This document shows, one piece after another, positions 11,801-54,775 of a DNA stretch of 57,166 nucleotides. The notes beneath the pieces were generated by a model. It did not search any database. It was not told the origin of the DNA and saw only the letters and a program-made list of their open reading frames with translations. Source of the stretch: Geoalkalibacter ferrihydriticus DSM 17813 (GTDB lineage: Bacteria > Desulfobacterota > Desulfuromonadia > Desulfuromonadales > Geoalkalibacteraceae); the NCBI RefSeq assembly GCF_000820505.1, contig NZ_JWJD01000002.1:363535-420700 (forward strand). The letters are read 5' to 3'. Each line of letters begins with the position of its first letter. Position 1 is the stretch's first letter. The translations under genes and the position numbers were made by a program.

Positions 11801-14439
11801 GGCCCGAGGAACGCCTTGCACCAGGACAGCATGAGGGGCGCATCTGCATTCACGGTGCCCGCGAGCACAACCTCAAGAATATCGACATCTGCCTGCCCCG
11901 CGACCAGTTCACGGTCATTACCGGCATGTCCGGCTCAGGCAAGAGCACCCTGGCCTTCGACATCCTCTTCGCCGAGGGGCAACGACGCTACCTCGAATCC
12001 CTCAACGCCTACGCCCGGCAGTTCGTGCAGCCCGCGGCGCGTCCCGACATGGACGCGCTGTTCGGCATTCCACCGACGGTGGCCATCGAGCAGCGCACCA
12101 GTCGCGGCGGACGCAAGAGCACCGTGGCGACCCTCACCGAAATCTACCATTTCCTGCGGCTGCTGTTCGTCAAACTCGGCGTGCAGCATTGCCCCACCTG
12201 CGAAGTTGCCATCGAACCCCAGTCGCGCGAGGCGATCGTCGCGCGGTTGCTGCGCGGGCGGCGCGGCCGGCGCGTCAGCCTGCTTGCGCCCCTGGTCACG
12301 GCGCGCAAGGGCTATTACACAGATCTCGCCAAATGGGCTGCGGGCAAGGGTTTCTCCCATCTGCGCGTGGACGGGGTGGATACTCCCACGGACAACTGGC
12401 CGCGTCTGGATCGCTTCCGCGAGCACAATATCGAACTGCCTGCCGGCGACATGGTCCTGGCACCGGAGCACGAAGAGGAACTGCGCGCCCTTCTTGACCT
12501 GGCCCTGGATTACGGCAAGGGCGTGGTGCAGGTGCTGGATGAAGATGGTGGGCCGCCTGCGATATTTTCGACGCGCCGCGCCTGTCCCGGTTGCGGGCGC
12601 AGCTTCGAGGAACCCGACCCGCGCCTGTTTTCCTTCAATTCCAAGCACGGCTGGTGCGAGAGTTGCTTCGGCACCGGCCTGCTGCTGCCGGGGTTTGATG
12701 CCGAGCAGAGCGGTGAGGAAATCTGGTGGAATGCCTGGTGGGAAGGCGTTGAGCAACCCTGCCCGAGCTGTGACGGTCGCCGCCTGCGTCCCGAGGCCCT
12801 GGCGGTTCGATTCCACGGCCGCGACATCGCCGAGTTGAGCGCCCTATCCATCGCCGCGGCGGAGGAATTCTTCCGCACTCTGGAGCTGGCCGGGCGCGAG
12901 GCGGACATCGCCCGCGACATCCTGCCCGAGCTCAGGGCACGTTTTGCCTTTTTGCGCGAGGTGGGGCTGTCCTACCTGTCCCTCGACCGCGCCGCCCCCA
13001 CCCTCTCGGGCGGCGAGGCGCAGCGCATCCGCCTGGCTGCGCAACTGGGCTCCAACCTGCGCGGAGTCTGCTACATCCTCGACGAGCCGACCATCGGTCT
13101 GCACCCCCGCGACAACCTCATGCTCCTCGACACCCTGGAAAAGCTCGGCGCCAAGGGCAACACCGTGGTGGTGGTGGAACATGACGACGAAACCATCCGC
13201 CGCGCGCGCCACCTCATCGATCTGGGCCCCGGCGCCGGCATCAATGGCGGCCGCGTGGTCGCACAGGGCAGCCTCGCCGACCTGATGGCCGCGCCCGAAT
13301 CGATCACCGGACGCTTTCTCGCCAAACCCCTCTACCACCCTCTGGTCAAACGCCGCGCCACGACCCGCCGCACCCCGGGAGTGGAAATCGTCGGTGCGCA
13401 CCTGCACAACCTCCAGCAGGTCAGCGTCAGCCTGCCCCTGGAGCGGCTGGTGGCGGTCACCGGAGTCTCCGGCTCAGGCAAGAGCACCCTGGTGCGATCG
13501 GTGCTGCACGACAATCTGCGCCGCCTGCTCGCAGAGCGCGGGACAACGCCCGGGAAACTGCGCGGTTGCGGGGAGTTGCGCGGCTGGGAAAAAATCGAGC
13601 GCATTCTCGAAGTCGACCAGACGCCCATCGGCAAGACGCCGCGCTCCTGCCCCGCCACCTACGTAGGCTTCTGGGATGAAGTGCGCAAGCTGTTTGCCGC
13701 GGTCCCCGAAGCAAAGATCCGCGGCTGGGGTCCGGGACGCTTTTCCTTCAACACCAAAGAGGGTCGTTGCGCCGCTTGCGAGGGTCAGGGCGTGCAGAAA
13801 ATCGAAATGAGTTTTTTGCCCAACGTGCAGGTGCCCTGCGAGCAGTGCGCCGGACTGCGCTTCACCGCCGAAACCCTGGCTGTCACCTACAAGGACAAAA
13901 ATATCGGCGAAGTGCTGGGCCTCACCGTCAATCAGGCCGCCGAATTCTTTGCCGCCCACAGCAAAATCCACCATGCCCTGTGTCTGTTGCAGGACGTGGG
14001 ACTGGGCTACCTGACTCTGGGGCAGCCGAGTCCCACCCTCTCGGGCGGCGAGGCGCAGCGCATCAAACTGGTCACCGAGTTGGCCAAGGCGCCTCTAGGC
14101 GACGCAGGCGACATCCCCCGCCCCCGCATCCGGCGCGGCAGCCATACCCTTTATCTGCTCGACGAGCCGACCATCGGCCTGCACATGGCCGATGTGGAAA
14201 AGCTCATTCGCGTACTGCACCGTCTGGTGGCCGCCGGAAACACCCTGGTCGTCATCGAGCACAATCTCGACATCATCGCCGAAGCCGACTGGCTCATTGA
14301 TCTCGGTCCCGAAGGCGGCGAGGGTGGTGGGCGCATCGTCGCCGCGGGCACCCCCGAGCAGGTCGCGCGGGTGCGCAAGGGCTCGCATACCGCGCCTATT
14401 CTGAAAAAATTTCTCAAGGAGCGCGCCCTGCCCAAATGA
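8860..14439 (+). CDS. uvrA: Tandem double-length UvrA-family ATPase
   Basis: A 1859-aa fusion of two complete UvrA-like proteins, about twice the usual 940 aa. UvrA binds DNA as an ABC-type ATPase and locates bulky lesions. Four Walker A motifs (GxSGSGKS) lie near residues 33, 648, 1022 and 1535, each with a later LSGGE signature and a DEP(S/T)xGLH Walker B. Zinc-finger cysteine pairs are seen in both halves (for example FCRGCG, CAEC/CDTC, CPTC/CPDC, CPGCG/CESC). Each half also keeps the YARQFL or YARQFV segment of the N-terminal ATPase. ATG 8860 has AAAGGA upstream; the longer in-frame start at 8818 overlaps sequence right after the terminator. No uvrB or uvrC is nearby. Fused UvrA proteins are known in some bacteria; whether this one serves excision repair or another DNA-binding role cannot be told here. 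Confidence 0.95.
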   Translation: MSANQIRVVGACQNNLKNLNLDLPLGELIVITGVSGSGKSSLAFDTIYAEGQRRYVETFSPYARQFLDRMDKPRVERIEGIPPAIAIDQTNPVRTSRSTVGTMTELTDHLKLLFARGARLFCRGCGRPVVRDTPESAATALLGESENRRALITFGVTVPRNFTVAEIRQHLAAQGYTRFHSEEESSLEVIQDRVTLSPERRGRLAESLEAAFKAGHGRLNVVLLDADGTPAAVRRFSTELHCAECDLAYHAPQPNLFSFNSPMGACDTCRGFGRTLGIDYALVIPDADKSLAEGAVKPFQTQSNRECQDDLLRFARQAQIPVDVPWRELNERQRAWVIDGEGRWEDGLWYGVSGFFDWLESKSYKMHIRVLLSKYRSYDRCPDCRGARLKPDALLWRLGGKSAADRVLPPQQRFRPAGADLAPEVLAGLPGLCLHDLMLLPIERCLEFFSHLQLPAPLDEAADLLLGEIRTRLAYLVEVGLPYLSLDRQSRTLSGGEVQRINLTTALGTSLVNTLFVLDEPSIGLHPRDMGRVIGVLQRLRDAGNSLLVVEHDPQVMLTADRVLDIGPGPGHKGGEVVFFGTPEELLRDSRSLTAQYLNGRKSVAAPSRQNAAATSPPALLQIRGAAAHNLKGVDVDIPLGRLVVVTGVSGSGKSTLVQDVLYQALCKLKGKPVEAPGAHEAIIGHEQISDVVLVDQSSIGRTTRSNPASYVGAFDAIRKAFAAELPARERGYTAGTFSFNSGQGRCPTCGGNGFEHVEMQFLSDVYLRCPDCNGRRYRAEILEIKLHPARGGPGRSIAEVLELTVAEALDFFADRPDVLRGLEPLRAVGLDYLSLGQPVPTLSGGEAQRLKLAGHLAAHRGGKKKVQSSTLFLFDEPTTGLHFDDIARLLGALRQLQDEGHSLLVIEHNLDVIAAADWLIDLGPEGGEGGGRLVCAGPPEEVKNCPTSHTGTALRLYLEQLRQTRNQEVRALPQHSAPTGPEERLAPGQHEGRICIHGAREHNLKNIDICLPRDQFTVITGMSGSGKSTLAFDILFAEGQRRYLESLNAYARQFVQPAARPDMDALFGIPPTVAIEQRTSRGGRKSTVATLTEIYHFLRLLFVKLGVQHCPTCEVAIEPQSREAIVARLLRGRRGRRVSLLAPLVTARKGYYTDLAKWAAGKGFSHLRVDGVDTPTDNWPRLDRFREHNIELPAGDMVLAPEHEEELRALLDLALDYGKGVVQVLDEDGGPPAIFSTRRACPGCGRSFEEPDPRLFSFNSKHGWCESCFGTGLLLPGFDAEQSGEEIWWNAWWEGVEQPCPSCDGRRLRPEALAVRFHGRDIAELSALSIAAAEEFFRTLELAGREADIARDILPELRARFAFLREVGLSYLSLDRAAPTLSGGEAQRIRLAAQLGSNLRGVCYILDEPTIGLHPRDNLMLLDTLEKLGAKGNTVVVVEHDDETIRRARHLIDLGPGAGINGGRVVAQGSLADLMAAPESITGRFLAKPLYHPLVKRRATTRRTPGVEIVGAHLHNLQQVSVSLPLERLVAVTGVSGSGKSTLVRSVLHDNLRRLLAERGTTPGKLRGCGELRGWEKIERILEVDQTPIGKTPRSCPATYVGFWDEVRKLFAAVPEAKIRGWGPGRFSFNTKEGRCAACEGQGVQKIEMSFLPNVQVPCEQCAGLRFTAETLAVTYKDKNIGEVLGLTVNQAAEFFAAHSKIHHALCLLQDVGLGYLTLGQPSPTLSGGEAQRIKLVTELAKAPLGDAGDIPRPRIRRGSHTLYLLDEPTIGLHMADVEKLIRVLHRLVAAGNTLVVIEHNLDIIAEADWLIDLGPEGGEGGGRIVAAGTPEQVARVRKGSHTAPILKKFLKERALPK

Positions 14440-35739: not shown

Positions 35740-35791
35740 CCTGAAACCGTGAGATCCGGGCTTAAGAGGAGCTTGAATCGGCAAAAAAACA

Positions 35792-35848
35792 CCCCGCTTT
35801 CGGAGGAGGATGAAAGCGGGGCGACAACCCGGAGGGGGCCGGGTTTTT
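35792..35848. terminator. Back-to-back terminators between convergent genes
   Basis: CCCCGCTTTC (35792-35801) pairs with GAAAGCGGGG (35812-35821); on the minus strand a run of seven T follows, ending the transporter transcript. A second hairpin, AACCCGG (35826-35832) with CCGGGTT (35839-35845) and five T, faces the plus strand and ends the radical SAM transcript. Confidence 0.88.
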
Positions 35849-50521: not shown

Positions 50522-50715
50522 AGCCCTCCCCAATCGGTATCAAGGCGCATGTTCCCATTGATTCTATCAGCCCTGCCCTGCAGCGCAGCAAAATTGAATC
50601 GATTTTTCGCCCTCTTGCAATTTGTGCCGCCGAGAGTCGCGCGTGATCCTCGGCGGCGTTGCTTCGTCAGCCACCCTTTGCCTCGGCGGGCGGGATGAAG
50701 TATCATTGCCCTATC

Positions 50716-51351
50716 ATGATCAAAGCCATCTTCTGGGATAACGACGGCGTTCTCGTCGACACCGAACCTCTCTACTTCCAGGCCACCCGTGAAGTCCTCG
50801 CCGAGACGGGCGTGGCGCTGAGCCGCGAAGCCTTCATTCGCATTTCCCTGCAGCAAGGGCGCAGCGCCTTCGATCTGGCCCGTGACCAAGGGGCCACCCC
50901 CAGGGAACTTGAGGACATGCGCCGCCAGCGCAATGAGCGTTACAGCGCATTGCTCGCCCACGCCCCCCCGGCCCTGCCCTGGGTCAAAGAGACCCTGCAC
51001 GCCCTGCACGGCCGCTGCCGCATGGCCATCGTGACCAGCAGCCTGCGCGAGCATTTCGACATCATCCACCGCAACACCGGCATTCTCGGGTATTTCGACT
51101 TCATCCTCACCCGCGAGGACTATCAACACACCAAACCCCATCCCGAACCCTACCTGACCGCTCTGAAACGCAGCGGCATCGCTCCCGCGCACTGCCTGGT
51201 CGTCGAAGACACCCAACGCGGCCTGCAATCCTCCGTGGATGCCGGCCTGGCTTGCGCCGTCATTCCCAACGGGCTGACCGGCGACAGCGATTTTTCGCGC
51301 GCATGCCATGTGCTGGGGGATATCCGTGAGGTCATCGGCCTACTGGGTTGA
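50716..51351 (+). CDS. HAD-family phosphatase or phosphoglucomutase-like protein
   Basis: A 211-aa haloacid dehalogenase superfamily protein (subfamily IA). The nucleophile motif is WDNDGVLVDTEP, with motif II Ser in VTSSLREHF and later motifs KPHPEPYL and VVEDTQRGLQ. The cap and general length resemble beta-phosphoglucomutase, phosphoglycolate phosphatase or related enzymes; the substrate cannot be set from sequence. I placed the start at MIKAIFW; two earlier in-frame ATG are possible, and the SD is weak in each case. Confidence 0.85.
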   Translation: MIKAIFWDNDGVLVDTEPLYFQATREVLAETGVALSREAFIRISLQQGRSAFDLARDQGATPRELEDMRRQRNERYSALLAHAPPALPWVKETLHALHGRCRMAIVTSSLREHFDIIHRNTGILGYFDFILTREDYQHTKPHPEPYLTALKRSGIAPAHCLVVEDTQRGLQSSVDAGLACAVIPNGLTGDSDFSRACHVLGDIREVIGLLG

Positions 51352-51437
51352 GGTCCGCCCCAAGAAAGACTTCGGCACGTTTCCTGCTATTCAATGGTTG
51401 CTGATTCGAGTCCATGTCAAACCCGGGAGATGATTTC

Positions 51438-52199
51438 ATGGCCGTCAACCCCATTGCCAACCTGCGTGAAATGCTTGCCGCCCAAGCGACCGGCGCCGAC
51501 ACCGATACCGCAAAAAAAACGCGCGTGTTTGAGCAGTTGCTCGACAGCTCCCTGGCCCAGGGCCAGCCCTTGAGCGGCGATCAGGCCCGCCATCTGGCGG
51601 CGCTGGTGAAGCTCGAAATGATGGCTGGCCTCATCGCCTGGGACGATAACGGAAAACGCGACACTGCGTCCTTTTTTGCATCGCTGCCGCCGGTTCCGCC
51701 GGCCAATCCCGCCGTCGCCCGTCAAAAGTTCAGCCTGATGTCGGAAAACCGACCCGTTGCAACGGCCGCGCCGCGCTTGACCCATAGCACGGAATCCAAA
51801 CCCGCATCGACCATCGAGCAGTTGGTCGACAAAGCGGCGCAACGCTACCAGGTCGCTCCCGAACTGATCAAAGCCGTCATCAAAGCCGAAAGCAGCTTCA
51901 ACCCGCGCGCCCAATCGCCCGCTGGTGCCCAGGGCTTGATGCAACTCATGCCCGCCACCGCTCGAGAACTCGGGGTCGAGGATTCTTTCGATCCGGAGCA
52001 GAACATCATGGGTGGCACACGTTATCTGCGCGACCTGCTCAAACGCTACGACGGCAACCTCGATCAGGCCCTGGCCGCCTACAACTGGGGCATGGGCAAT
52101 CTGGCCCGCAGCGACGGCCGCTTACCCGAGGAAACGCGCAATTACCAGATCCGCGTCAAGCAGTACCTGACGGAATTCAGCGGCAAACGCAGCGCCTAA
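51438..52199 (+). CDS. Lytic transglycosylase (SLT domain)
   Basis: A 253-aa protein that cleaves peptidoglycan glycan strands. The C-terminal 110 residues are a Slt/MltC-like domain with the catalytic Glu in IKAVIKAESSFNP, then SPAGAQGLMQLMPATARELGV, a loop ending NIMGGTRYLRDLL and the final YNWGMGNL. The N-terminal half is low-complexity and lacks a clear signal peptide, which is unusual for a wall enzyme. I chose ATG 51438 after GGGAGA, eight codons inside a longer frame. Confidence 0.9.
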   Translation: MAVNPIANLREMLAAQATGADTDTAKKTRVFEQLLDSSLAQGQPLSGDQARHLAALVKLEMMAGLIAWDDNGKRDTASFFASLPPVPPANPAVARQKFSLMSENRPVATAAPRLTHSTESKPASTIEQLVDKAAQRYQVAPELIKAVIKAESSFNPRAQSPAGAQGLMQLMPATARELGVEDSFDPEQNIMGGTRYLRDLLKRYDGNLDQALAAYNWGMGNLARSDGRLPEETRNYQIRVKQYLTEFSGKRSA

Positions 52200-52317
52200 G
52201 CGTTCTCTTCAGTTCCGGGCTCAAGTCATGTTCCTGGTTTTTTTTTTGCCGGCAGAGTTGCTAAGGGCCGGATGTTTAGATCTCCCCCACTCAAAGTTGG
52301 TTTTTTTAAAAAAACCC

Positions 52318-52346
52318 TTGACACCTTCCGAGCTTTGTCCTACTTT
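52318..52346 (+). promoter_or_regulatory. Promoter P1 of tandem small RNA gene 1
   Basis: TTGACA (52318-52323), a 17-base spacer and TACTTT (52341-52346). Immediately upstream is a perfect 18-bp palindrome, GGTTTTTTTAAAAAAACC (52299-52316), which could act as an UP-like element or operator. Confidence 0.5.
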
Positions 52347-52352
52347 CTAAGC

Positions 52353-52451
52353 AGAAACAAATAAGAAAAACCTAACACCAAAAGACATACCCTCACAGCT
52401 CCAGAAAGACCTTTTGCCCCGTGTTACCTCCCTGACACGGGGCACTTTTTT
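52353..52451 (+). ncRNA. Candidate small RNA 1 with an anti-SD loop
   Basis: A transcript from P1 would run about 99 bases and end in a terminator: GCCCCGTGT (52416-52424) with ACACGGGGC (52435-52443), a loop containing ACCTCCCTG and six T. The loop has CCTCCC, complementary to Shine-Dalgarno sequences. No reading frame with an SD is present. It is homologous to the next candidate in its 3' half. Confidence 0.55.
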
Positions 52452-52453
52452 GC

Positions 52454-52482
52454 TTGACAAAAGATTTAAGAAACTTCATATT
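52454..52482 (+). promoter_or_regulatory. Promoter P2 of tandem small RNA gene 2
   Basis: TTGACA (52454-52459), a 17-base spacer and CATATT (52477-52482). It begins just after the T-run of small RNA 1. Confidence 0.5.
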
Positions 52483-52488
52483 AAAAAA

Positions 52489-52574
52489 AACAAAGACATT
52501 TTTCACCGCCTGGTTTCAACGAAATCAGCCGGTTTTGCCCCGTGTATCTCCTCCCTGGCACGGGGCATTTTTTT
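52489..52574 (+). ncRNA. Candidate small RNA 2 with a CTCCTCCC loop
   Basis: A transcript from P2 would be about 86 bases long. It ends in GCCCCGTG (52537-52544) paired with CACGGGGC (52559-52566) and seven T. The loop contains CTCCTCCC, an anti-SD sequence like that of the CcsR/cuckoo group of alpha-proteobacterial small RNAs. The block TTTTGCCCCGTGT to CACGGGGCA is shared with small RNA 1, 121 bp away. The remaining stretch to 52645 shows nothing but the SD of the next gene. Confidence 0.55.
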
Positions 52575-52645
52575 GTCTGCCGCTCTGCCCTTCATCGAAA
52601 TTCACGATAAACTAAAACTTGAATCCGACCAGGAAGGAGTATTGC

Positions 52646-54775
52646 ATGCAAGCAGACCACCCCCAGGATCTCGTCACCCGCCTCAGCCAAATCGACCAGT
52701 CACGCCTGCCCGCCGACGGCGGTCCCGAGTTCAACCGGCTCATTTTCGAAAAAAGTCCCTACCTGCTGCAACACGCGGAAAATCCCCTCGATTGGTATCC
52801 TTGGGGTGATGAGGCCTTCGAACGCGCGCGGCGGGAAAACAAGCCGGTGTTTCTCTCCATCGGCTATTCAACCTGCCACTGGTGCCATGTCATGGCCCAT
52901 GAGTCCTTTGAGGATCGACAGGTCGCGGACGCTCTCAACCCCCATTTCATATGCATCAAGGTCGACCGCGAGGAACGCCCGGATATCGACAACACCTACA
53001 TGACGGTCTGCCAGATGCTCACCGGCAGCGGCGGCTGGCCCCTGACCCTGCTGCTCACCCCGGAACGCCAGCCCTTCTTCGCCGCTACCTACCTGCCGAA
53101 AGACTCCCGCGGCGGCATGATGGGCCTGCTTGATCTGGCGCGCAAGGTGACCGAACTCTGGCAGACGGAGCGCAGCCGCATCGATCAGACCGGCGCGCAG
53201 ATTCGCGAATCTCTGCTGCGCCTCGAACAAACAGCTGCAAAGAGCGCCACCCTCGACGCCCAGAGCTTGCGCGCCGCGCGTGATCATTTCCTGCAATCCT
53301 TCGATCGCCACCATGCCGGTTTCGGCAGCGCACCAAAATTTCCCACACCGCACAACCTCTCGCTGCTGCTGCGCATTGGCCAGCGCTTTGCGGATCAGCA
53401 GGCGCAGGTCATGGCCTTGCAAACCTTGCAGCAGATGCGCCTGGGTGGCCTCTTCGACCAGATCGGCTTCGGCCTGCACCGCTACTCCGTCGACGCGCGC
53501 TGGCTGGTGCCGCATTTCGAAAAGATGCTCTACGATCAAGCGCTTGCCACCCTTGCCTACCTCGACGCCTGGCAAGCCACCGGCGAGAACTTCTACGGGC
53601 AGGTCGCCCAGGAAATCCTCGACTACCTGGTGCGCGACCTCAAGCACCCCGAAGGTGCTTTTTGTTGCGGCGAGGATGCGGATTCGGAAGGGGAAGAAGG
53701 CACCTTCTACGTGTGGACGCCGGAACAGATCCGATCGGTGCTCGGCAAGGAGCAGGGCGATATTCTATGCCACATCTACGGCGTCACCGAATCGGGCAAC
53801 TTTGAAGGCAAAAACATCCTGCACCTGGAGCGCGATGTCGCGGAACTGGCGAAAGAGACCGCAACGCCCCCTGAGCAGCTGGGCGCCCTGCTCGGCGAGG
53901 CGCGCCATAAATTGCTCGCCGCCCGCGCCCGACGCATTCGCCCCCACCGCGACGACAAAATACTCACGGGCTGGAACGGCCTGGCCATCGCCGCTCTCGC
54001 CCGCGCCGCAGCGCTGCTCGACCAACCGGCGCTCATCACCCATGCCGCCAAGGCCGCCGATTTCATTCTCGAGCAACTGCGCACTGCAGAAGGTCGGCTG
54101 CTACGCCGTTACCGCGCCGGCGACGCCGCCATCCCCGCCTTTCTCGAAGACTACAGCTTCTTTATCTTCGGCCTCACCGAACTGCACCAGGCAGGCTTCG
54201 ACAACCGCTACCTGGCCACGGCTTTGGATCTGAGCCGCGGCATGTTGCACCTGTTCAGCGATGCCCAGGGCGATCTCTACGACACCGGTGACGATGCCGA
54301 AACCATCATCACCCGCGGCCGCAGCCGCCACGATGGAGCGGTCCCCGCCGGCAGCTCCCTGGCCGTCCTCAATCTGCTGCGCCTCGGACGCCTGTCAGGC
54401 GATGCACAGCTTGAACAACGCGGAGAAGATCTGCTCGCCCGGCTGCTGCCTGCTGCCATCCAGAACCCCCAGGCCTTCAGCCAATTGCTCATCGCTCTTG
54501 ATTACGCCCTCGGCCCGCGCGAAGAGGTGGTCATCGCCCTGCCCGATGCCGACGCCCGCCCGACGGAAATGCTCAAGGTTTTGCGCCAGAAACTGCGCCC
54601 GCGCACCCTGGTTCTGCTGCGCCGCCCCGACGATGCGGTTCTCGAACACCTCGCCGCCCCGGTCCGCGACAAGCAGGTCGTCGATGGCCGGATCACCGCC
54701 TGGCTGTGCCGCGATCAGAGCTGCCAGGCGCCGGTGACCTCGGCGGAGGAACTGGAGAAAATGCTGGCGGGGTGA
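52646..54775 (+). CDS. DUF255 thioredoxin-like protein (YyaL/SSP411 family)
   Basis: A 709-aa protein. The N-terminal thioredoxin-fold domain has [16 protein letters not shown] (CxxC) with [10 protein letters not shown] before it and [12 protein letters not shown] after, the signature of the DUF255 family (bacterial YyaL, mammalian spermatogenesis-associated protein 20). The rest is an alpha/alpha-barrel like that of N-acylglucosamine epimerase or six-hairpin glycosidases ([32 protein letters not shown]). The function in bacteria is not settled. AAGGAG precedes the ATG; nine extra codons upstream are unlikely. Confidence 0.92.

Follow-up and report, generated by a model that had tools for sequence, protein, structure and literature searches.

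In Geoalkalibacter ferrihydriticus DSM 17813, the spacer between an SLT transglycosylase gene and a DUF255 gene quite probably carries two independent tandem sibling genes for short trans-acting anti-Shine-Dalgarno (anti-SD) RNAs that lower the translation of chosen mRNAs. The spacer lies in the window, the whole stretch of 57,166 nucleotides that was analysed (contig C2, 363535-420700, of a 3.84-Mb genome labelled G000). Judged by sequence comparison, the pair is one local form of an order-wide family of probable anti-SD small RNA (sRNA) genes in Desulfuromonadales. Two tandem sRNA genes with anti-SD loops had been proposed in the initial annotation, and order-wide conservation, promoter-like boxes, terminators, stem covariation and loop conservation now argue for this proposal. 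The anatomy, the conservation, the promoter-like boxes, the loop conservation and an hfq gene were all observed directly. The order includes electrode- and metal-respiring bacteria, and matches to the family occur in most of its genomes, at a conserved place.

Anatomy of the two units

Direct reading of the sequence recovered the two promoter-like sequences (P1 and P2), both hairpins, the T tails and the RNA lengths of about 99 and 86 nt exactly where the initial annotation had placed them (Table 1). Both units contain a T-tailed GCCCCGTG/CACGGGGC hairpin, with the loop CCUCCC in unit 1 and CUCCUCCC in unit 2. Hairpin 1 reads TGCCCCGTG-TTACCTCCCTGA-CACGGGGCA and is followed by the tail CTTTTTT, and hairpin 2 reads TGCCCCGTG-TATCTCCTCCCTGG-CACGGGGCA, followed by TTTTTTT. 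The hairpins are preceded by the U-rich stretches CCUUUU (RNA1) and GGUUUU (RNA2), and the tails contain 6 and 7 U, respectively. Fold z-scores were -4.4 for RNA1 and -4.1 for RNA2, with none of 200 shuffles folding equally well for either RNA. RNA2 was predicted to fold into two hairpins, and RNA1 into only one confident hairpin. In the ensemble, the CCUCCC of unit 1 has an unpaired probability of 1.0, the adjoining A and U being mostly paired, and the CUCCUCCC of unit 2 has an unpaired probability of 0.75-1.0.

Table 1. Features of the locus and its neighbours, in window coordinates
Feature	Position	Strand	Basis and details
HAD hydrolase, upstream neighbour	50659..51351	+	Pfam PF13419
SLT transglycosylase, upstream gene	51414..52199	+	Pfam PF01464
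Palindrome GGTTTTTTTAAAAAAACC, 18 bp	52299..52316	.	exact in sequence
Promoter-like P1, TTGACA-N17-TACTTT	52318..52346	+	sequence; -35 52318-52323, -10 52341-52346
Predicted sRNA 1 (unit b), ~99 nt	52353..52451	+	sequence, fold
Terminator hairpin 1, unpaired loop CCUCCC	52415..52444	+	sequence, fold, R1 match
Promoter-like P2, TTGACA-N17-CATATT	52454..52482	+	consensus scan, 10/12 matches; -35 52454-52459, -10 52477-52482
Predicted sRNA 2 (unit c), ~86 nt, two hairpins	52489..52574	+	sequence, fold
5' hairpin of sRNA 2, CCGCCTGGTTTC..GAAATCAGCCGG	52504..52533	+	fold, congener identity
Terminator hairpin 2, loop AUCUCCUCCCUG	52536..52567	+	sequence, fold, R1 match
Thioredox_DsbH/DUF255, downstream gene, conserved neighbour	52646..54775	+	Pfam PF03190, tblastn, survey
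Related double hairpin, loops CCCCCU and AUCCUCCUCC, T tail	35790..35845	-	3' of Na_sulph_symp (SLC13-type) gene

The -10 box of P1 is weak, matching TATAAT at just three of six positions, for which reason the consensus scan lists P2 and not P1. A bare scan of this kind is near chance level (1 promoter found and 0.6 expected; 4 terminators found and 2.3 expected), and the case therefore rests on comparison. A protein spanning the units was considered and rejected: the sole listed open reading frame of at least 60 aa inside them (52414-52809, with a TTG start) is mechanical, and overlaps the DUF255 gene in another frame.

Both hairpins are strong and T-tailed, and could be nothing but intrinsic terminators that stop the transglycosylase mRNA and read-through transcripts, with an incidental loop sequence. 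From the SLT stop codon (52199) to hairpin 1 the scan shows no further terminator on the plus strand, so that SLT transcripts may also end at the unit 1 hairpin, which would then double as terminator for the transglycosylase mRNA. However, terminator 1 directly precedes promoter 2 with no gene between them, and RNA2 therefore needs its own start. The initial annotation had named hairpins that only terminate longer mRNAs as the case that would speak against sRNA genes, and this arrangement makes that case unlikely. Further evidence against it comes from promoters, neighbours and loops in other genomes, given below, and altogether a purely terminating role is considered very improbable.

Conservation in congeners and across the order

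The window was aligned with the corresponding loci of three congeners (L002, L003 and L004). Identity to the window is 35% upstream of P1, 54% in P1 and 64% in P2. Within RNA1 it is 51% in the 5' part and 85% in the 3' hairpin with its tail, and within RNA2 it is 94% in the 5' hairpin and 98% in the terminator hairpin; the spacer to the DUF255 gene is 56% identical, and the region around the DUF255 start 64%. At the position of P1, all three congeners carry TTGACA-N17-TATTTT, and a promoter-like P2 is found at the same place as in the window. As read from the alignment, this is the footprint that would be expected of functional RNAs, and not of a drifting spacer. The 18-bp palindrome before P1, also pointed out in the initial annotation, is exact in the window but not conserved in the three congeners. 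A role as operator was rejected on this ground, the identity over 52258-52317 being 35%; the preferred reading is an A/T tract that precedes the -35 box and may resemble an UP element.

The number of units differs between loci. The three congeners and G004 contain units a, b and c in a row after the transglycosylase gene, G005 contains a and c, and the window contains b and c. The extra a unit (with loops such as ATTCCCCCTCCTT) lies downstream of SLT in the three congeners and two other family members (L002-L006). In the window, positions 52200-52317 lack such a unit, and a T10 run and the T7A7 palindrome stand there instead. No a-type loop was found among the five strongest matches in the window's genome to R1, the covariance model described below, and the two weakest matches have E values of 0.057 and 0.069. 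Many a units start with ATGTTCCCC, and a small leaderless peptide encoded there was considered; it was rejected, as comparison by eye shows that the frame is not kept across L002, L003, L167 and L168.

A DNA search of 58 relatives at E 0.01 gave matches in 19 and none in 39. Window proteins compared with the fetched loci by tblastn place DUF255 next to the units in families f1, f5, f6, f9, f10, f12 and f20, and HAD near them in f1, f6, f10, f13 and f20. The SLT transglycosylase adjoins the units in f1 loci; in other families just two of the fetched loci match its protein, namely L027 (at a distance of about 4 kb from its hairpin) and L037, a restriction that argues against a hairpin that serves merely to terminate the transglycosylase mRNA. 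Outside f1, a common pair has a p unit first (loop ..CCCCCCCTCC) and then an a unit (loop e.g. ATACCCCTCCTT). In a survey of 40 stretches, picked from 90 DUF255 places for score and spread (one of them just 276 bases), 24 contain one or more T-tailed hairpins whose loop bears CTCC or CCTC, and 16 contain none. By hand count, 37 of the 50 T-tailed hairpins carry CTCC or CCTC, and none was flagged for GGAG.

The presence of units upstream of DUF255 in many families could also indicate a cis-acting element, i.e., an attenuator or processing signal of that downstream gene. In G005, however, the cluster stays after SLT, with the genome's one DUF255 match about 320 kb away; related hairpins are found at other places, and both window units end in full terminators. 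A cis-acting role is thus regarded as extremely improbable.

Promoter-like sequences accompany most units. Scores of at least 9 out of 12 were obtained for 26 of 51 units, compared with 6.3% of shuffled regions, and scores of at least 8 for 44 of 51; the means were 8.6 for units and 6.7 for shuffles. The other seven units score only 6 or 7, near the shuffled average of 6.7. Boxes of this kind upstream of most units are at odds with hairpins that only terminate. The RNAs predicted across the 51 units are 66-121 nt long, those of the a and p units of relatives being about 70 nt.

A covariance search for the hairpin in Desulfuromonadia, suggested in the initial annotation, was carried out with R1, a model of the terminator hairpin built from 42 training sequences. 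At E 0.01, R1 finds a match in 124 of the 136 order genomes and none in 12. The training sequences are from these same genomes, and the counts within the order, at this and the following cut-off, are therefore partly by construction. At E 1e-4, 110 of 277 class genomes match, comprising 102 of the 136 order genomes and 8 of the 141 in the rest of the class, where 141 is 277 minus the 136 order genomes, taken as included, and the 8 matches are labelled by class only. In the window, R1 gives E 2.8e-7 for hairpin 1, 6.5e-10 for hairpin 2 and 8.4e-5 for the double hairpin at 35790-35845, all of which belong to the training set. A scan of named genomes with the stem, CTCC and the T tail fixed returned 37 stretches, 22 of which carry names such as Desulfuromonas, Desulfuromonadales, Geoalkalibacter, Geothermobacter, Pelovirga and Geobacteraceae; another 2 are called Deltaproteobacteria and 13 are from other groups. 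Among 52 terminators in 447 kb of the window's genome, CTCC is in or near the loop in 6 and GGAG in 2, so that loop enrichment within this genome is weak; the three hairpins of the window make up half of the six.

Loop and stem were observed to behave differently. A loop-free pattern, GCCCCGTG-N4-22-CACGGGGC-N-TTTT, matches 53 places in 41 of the 136 order genomes, with CTCC in the loop at 40 of the 53 and GGAG at none; the other 13 rows include three hairpins counted on both strands. In alignment A2, 97.4% of cells pair and six of nine pairs change on both sides. The 31 cells changed on both sides in A2 were reached by 0 of 500 shuffles, and the best slid version gave 16; relatedness alone can beat such shuffles, here and in alignment A5, and the slid controls are also lower. 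In A5, 5 of 12 pairs and 9 cells are changed on both sides, with 1 of 500 and 0 of 500 shuffles doing as well and a best slid version of 3. Most C-rich loop columns are invariant in A4 and A5. Covariation in the 5' hairpin of RNA2 is weak: an alignment of six sequences shows just two cells that change on both sides, and 29 of the 500 shuffles equal that number. The simplest reading of these alignments is that the loop is selected as sequence and the stem as structure. Loops kept while stems change, and the CTCC bias of the loop-free matches, argue against terminators with incidental loops.

Proposed action and related hairpins

Each RNA would be made from its own sigma-70-type promoter and stopped at a strong intrinsic terminator. 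The terminator hairpin would double as the active element, with a rigid GC stem presenting an unpaired C-rich loop, and the two loops resemble the anti-SD tail of 16S rRNA. Hfq may bind the U-rich stretch before the hairpin and the U tail, and with Hfq the loops would pair with purine-rich SD sequences, blocking 30S binding and reducing translation. RNA1 and RNA2 would be diverged siblings with different loops, 5' parts and promoters, and on this account probably answer different signals on overlapping targets. By analogy with known RNAs, this mechanism is probable; we infer transcription, Hfq binding, SD pairing, the targets and the direction of regulation. An hfq gene is found in 54 of 56 genomes, including the window's; with this gene, a U-rich stretch before the terminator and a U tail all present, the window RNAs are probably Hfq-dependent. 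The putative active loop can be mutated in a reporter, which would make post-transcriptional control in the order directly testable.

For target prediction, the loops were compared at -12 kcal/mol with 334 initiation regions, from crude gene calls in 447 kb of the window's genome. The unit 1 loop is predicted to pair with 28 of the 334 initiation regions and with 6 regions inside genes, and 30 shuffled loops gave a mean of 10.9 and a maximum of 44. The unit 2 loop is predicted to pair with 68 of the 334 and with 24 regions inside genes, and its 30 shuffled loops gave a mean of 47.4 and a maximum of 70. Pairing of the loops with ribosome-binding sites is possible in principle, but real and shuffled loops are not clearly separated by this prediction. 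The pattern AGGGAGGAG-N4-10-ATG occurs 18 times, compared with 7 for the reversed pattern, in four congeneric genomes, and 3 times, compared with 3, in the window's own. Two genes with this pattern recur in G001 and G003, one whose 314-aa product has a twin-arginine-like start and contains CIGCRSCEAACNKEQ, and the other an open frame beginning METK; both are leads only.

The lack of a clear excess over shuffled loops would also suit RNAs whose C-rich loops sponge GGA-rich RNAs (e.g., CsrA-binding ones) or sibling sRNAs, or bind a protein. The letters that oppose an SD sequence also oppose GGA, and an RNA sponge of sibling sRNAs is known, the available text of PMC12559287 describing CrfA and SisA-D. 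On the other hand, the loops differ between units as seeds do, and ribosome-binding sites are the targets of those known RNAs whose layout is most similar. A sponge or protein-binding role is therefore considered decidedly unlikely, and repression at SD sequences remains the preferred reading.

Other C-rich hairpins were noticed in the same genomes. The double hairpin at 35790-35845 lies directly 3' of an SLC13-type transporter gene, with no promoter noticed, and is possibly a 3'-UTR-derived anti-SD sRNA. Hairpins with CCTCC loops follow orthologues of this gene in G002, G024 and G049 (L111, L100, L112 and L019). Two weak R1 matches in the window's genome are L109 (G000:C7:98218-98261, E 0.027, loop CCCTCCTCC) and L115 (G000:C3:225671-225713, E 0.040, loop CCCCCTCC); L107 in G002 resembles L115, with the sequence 5' of the hairpin kept. 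On the minus strand of L160 (about 14050-14152; G000:C2, about 294 kb), a C/U-rich ACCTCCCTCTCCTTTCTC precedes a T-tailed hairpin with loop TGCCCTCCTCA, a candidate C-rich sRNA. The gammaproteobacterial stretches L042 (about 1250-1383) and L047 (Hydrocarboniphaga) contain, by eye, hairpin-like C-rich repeats ending in GCCCCGTGAGTCTCCCCCCGGCTCACGGGGC with a T-rich tail; this looks like an unrelated multi-hairpin anti-SD RNA.

A second sRNA family (L232-L251; e.g., three copies on the minus strand of L233, and G000:C5:23076-23093) has a hairpin with the loop UUGUGGCAGG and a TATAGT-like -10 box. Most copies have an upstream palindrome TGTGC-N4-GCACA and a C-rich terminator loop, and up to three stand in tandem. 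The core pattern occurs in 78 of 136 genomes, the reversed control also matching in many, so that not every match is this RNA. An Rfam search of 20 stretches of this family gave only two sub-threshold microRNA matches. Members at L024, L048, L046, L054 and other f8 loci show a promoter dyad such as TGACTATTTTAGTCATAT upstream of the hairpins. This dyad resembles the IscR type 1 site, and suggests iron-sulfur or iron control of these members. The complement of the loop, CCTGCCACAA, has 19, 17 and 31 sites in G000, G002 and G024, compared with 3, 6 and 7 for the reversed sequence, and of 30 sites read (10 per genome; L252-L281), 16 coincide with the codons of a CXXCH haem motif in an open frame. 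Any sequence that complements Cys-His codons would be expected to behave in this way, so that the figure is no proof on its own. In 447 kb of the window's genome, no exact site was found among 14 CXXCH sites in open reading frames with two or more.

In a broader reading, the pair would be one node of an order-wide translation-control layer, in which unlike sRNA families sharing an anti-SD terminator loop together tune respiration. It would cover all four kinds of unit at the DUF255 locus (a, p, b and c), the 3' end of the SLC13-type transporter mRNA and the tandem UUGUGGCAGG-loop family. The UUGUGGCAGG loop may pair with CXXCH codons (CC-TGC-CAC-AA) of multihaem cytochrome mRNAs, with the terminator loop blocking ribosome-binding sites. 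This wider reading is speculative and, on balance, unlikely.

Comparison with known RNA families

In the window stretch, no Rfam family reaches its gathering score; the sub-threshold scores (gathering scores in brackets) are 37.8 for anti-hemB (49.5), 32.8 for CyaR (47) and 30.3 for alpha-r14 (58.8). Among 17 related loci only one tRNA passes threshold, and the best anti-hemB score there is 35.1. Anti-hemB, or Burkholderia RNA 7 (RF02837), is the best Rfam match to the window at 37.8 bits and shares a CCUCCCUG loop, but the score is below 49.5 and the alignment has to bridge two separate units by means of a long insert.

Cuckoo RNAs carry an anti-SD motif in hairpin loops, and the window resembles CcsR1-4/cuckoo in having neighbouring sRNAs in a row with anti-SD loops. 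The initial annotation had drawn this kinship, which the comparison does not bear out: by sequence, each window unit has its own promoter-like boxes and terminator, and no family is above the Rfam threshold. In contrast, the available text of PMC10253847 describes CcsRs as products of RNase E cleavage of a single RpoH-driven transcript, which also contains the DUF1127 gene ccaF1. A search for DUF1127 (PF06568) gave no match in G000-G005, which comprise the window's own genome and five others from its genus and family; of 40 relatives, 6 have a match above the cut-off. Membership in this family was rejected on the lack of a DUF1127 match in G000-G005 and on the separate promoter-like sequences.

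In proposed mode of action, the nearest known RNAs are the NmsRs of Neisseria, the Burkholderia double-hairpin RNAs and alpha-r14/NfeR1. NmsRA and NmsRB (NgncR_162/163) are described in the available text of PMC5362039 as tandem siblings, each with putative -35 and -10 boxes and hairpins, which use unpaired, UC-rich anti-SD stretches to down-regulate mRNAs at the SD sequence. The window units are similarly two tandem sRNAs with their own promoter-like boxes and putative anti-SD loops, a likeness of layout. Unlike the window RNAs, the NmsRs are depicted in that text with three stem-loops, and anti-SD letters occupy both the segment that joins SL1 to SL2 and the loop of SL2. Burkholderia double-hairpin RNAs (RF02278, 'toxic small RNA') are, according to the available text of PMC5688073, very short and almost wholly two hairpins, with CU-rich unpaired stretches complementary to ribosome-binding sites and several homologues per genome. 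As described there, they are not tandem. Of the window RNAs, RNA2 has two hairpins and RNA1 one confident hairpin; RF02278 has no match in the window stretch at E of at most 5, nor in 17 related loci at E of at most 0.1. In alpha-r14/NfeR1 (RF02344), anti-SD motifs in hairpins are kept while stem sequences vary, and NfeR1 is a published anti-SD sRNA acting on the SD of mRNAs (PMC10746234, available text). Its weak covariance match, at 30.3 bits, spans both window units, but alpha-r14 as described there is one RNA with three anti-SD hairpins, whereas the window has two RNAs with one each.

Among the titles and abstract openings found in searches of the open literature, none describes conserved trans-acting sRNAs in Desulfuromonadales, subscription journals being mostly outside this scope; the authors of PMC11109978 state, in its available text, that their method was not designed for comprehensive sRNA identification. 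We take the window RNAs as a new family of a known kind, tandem anti-SD sRNAs, fitting no family tested. They would add a distant lineage to those with anti-SD hairpin loops, and bear on the question of convergence among such RNAs.
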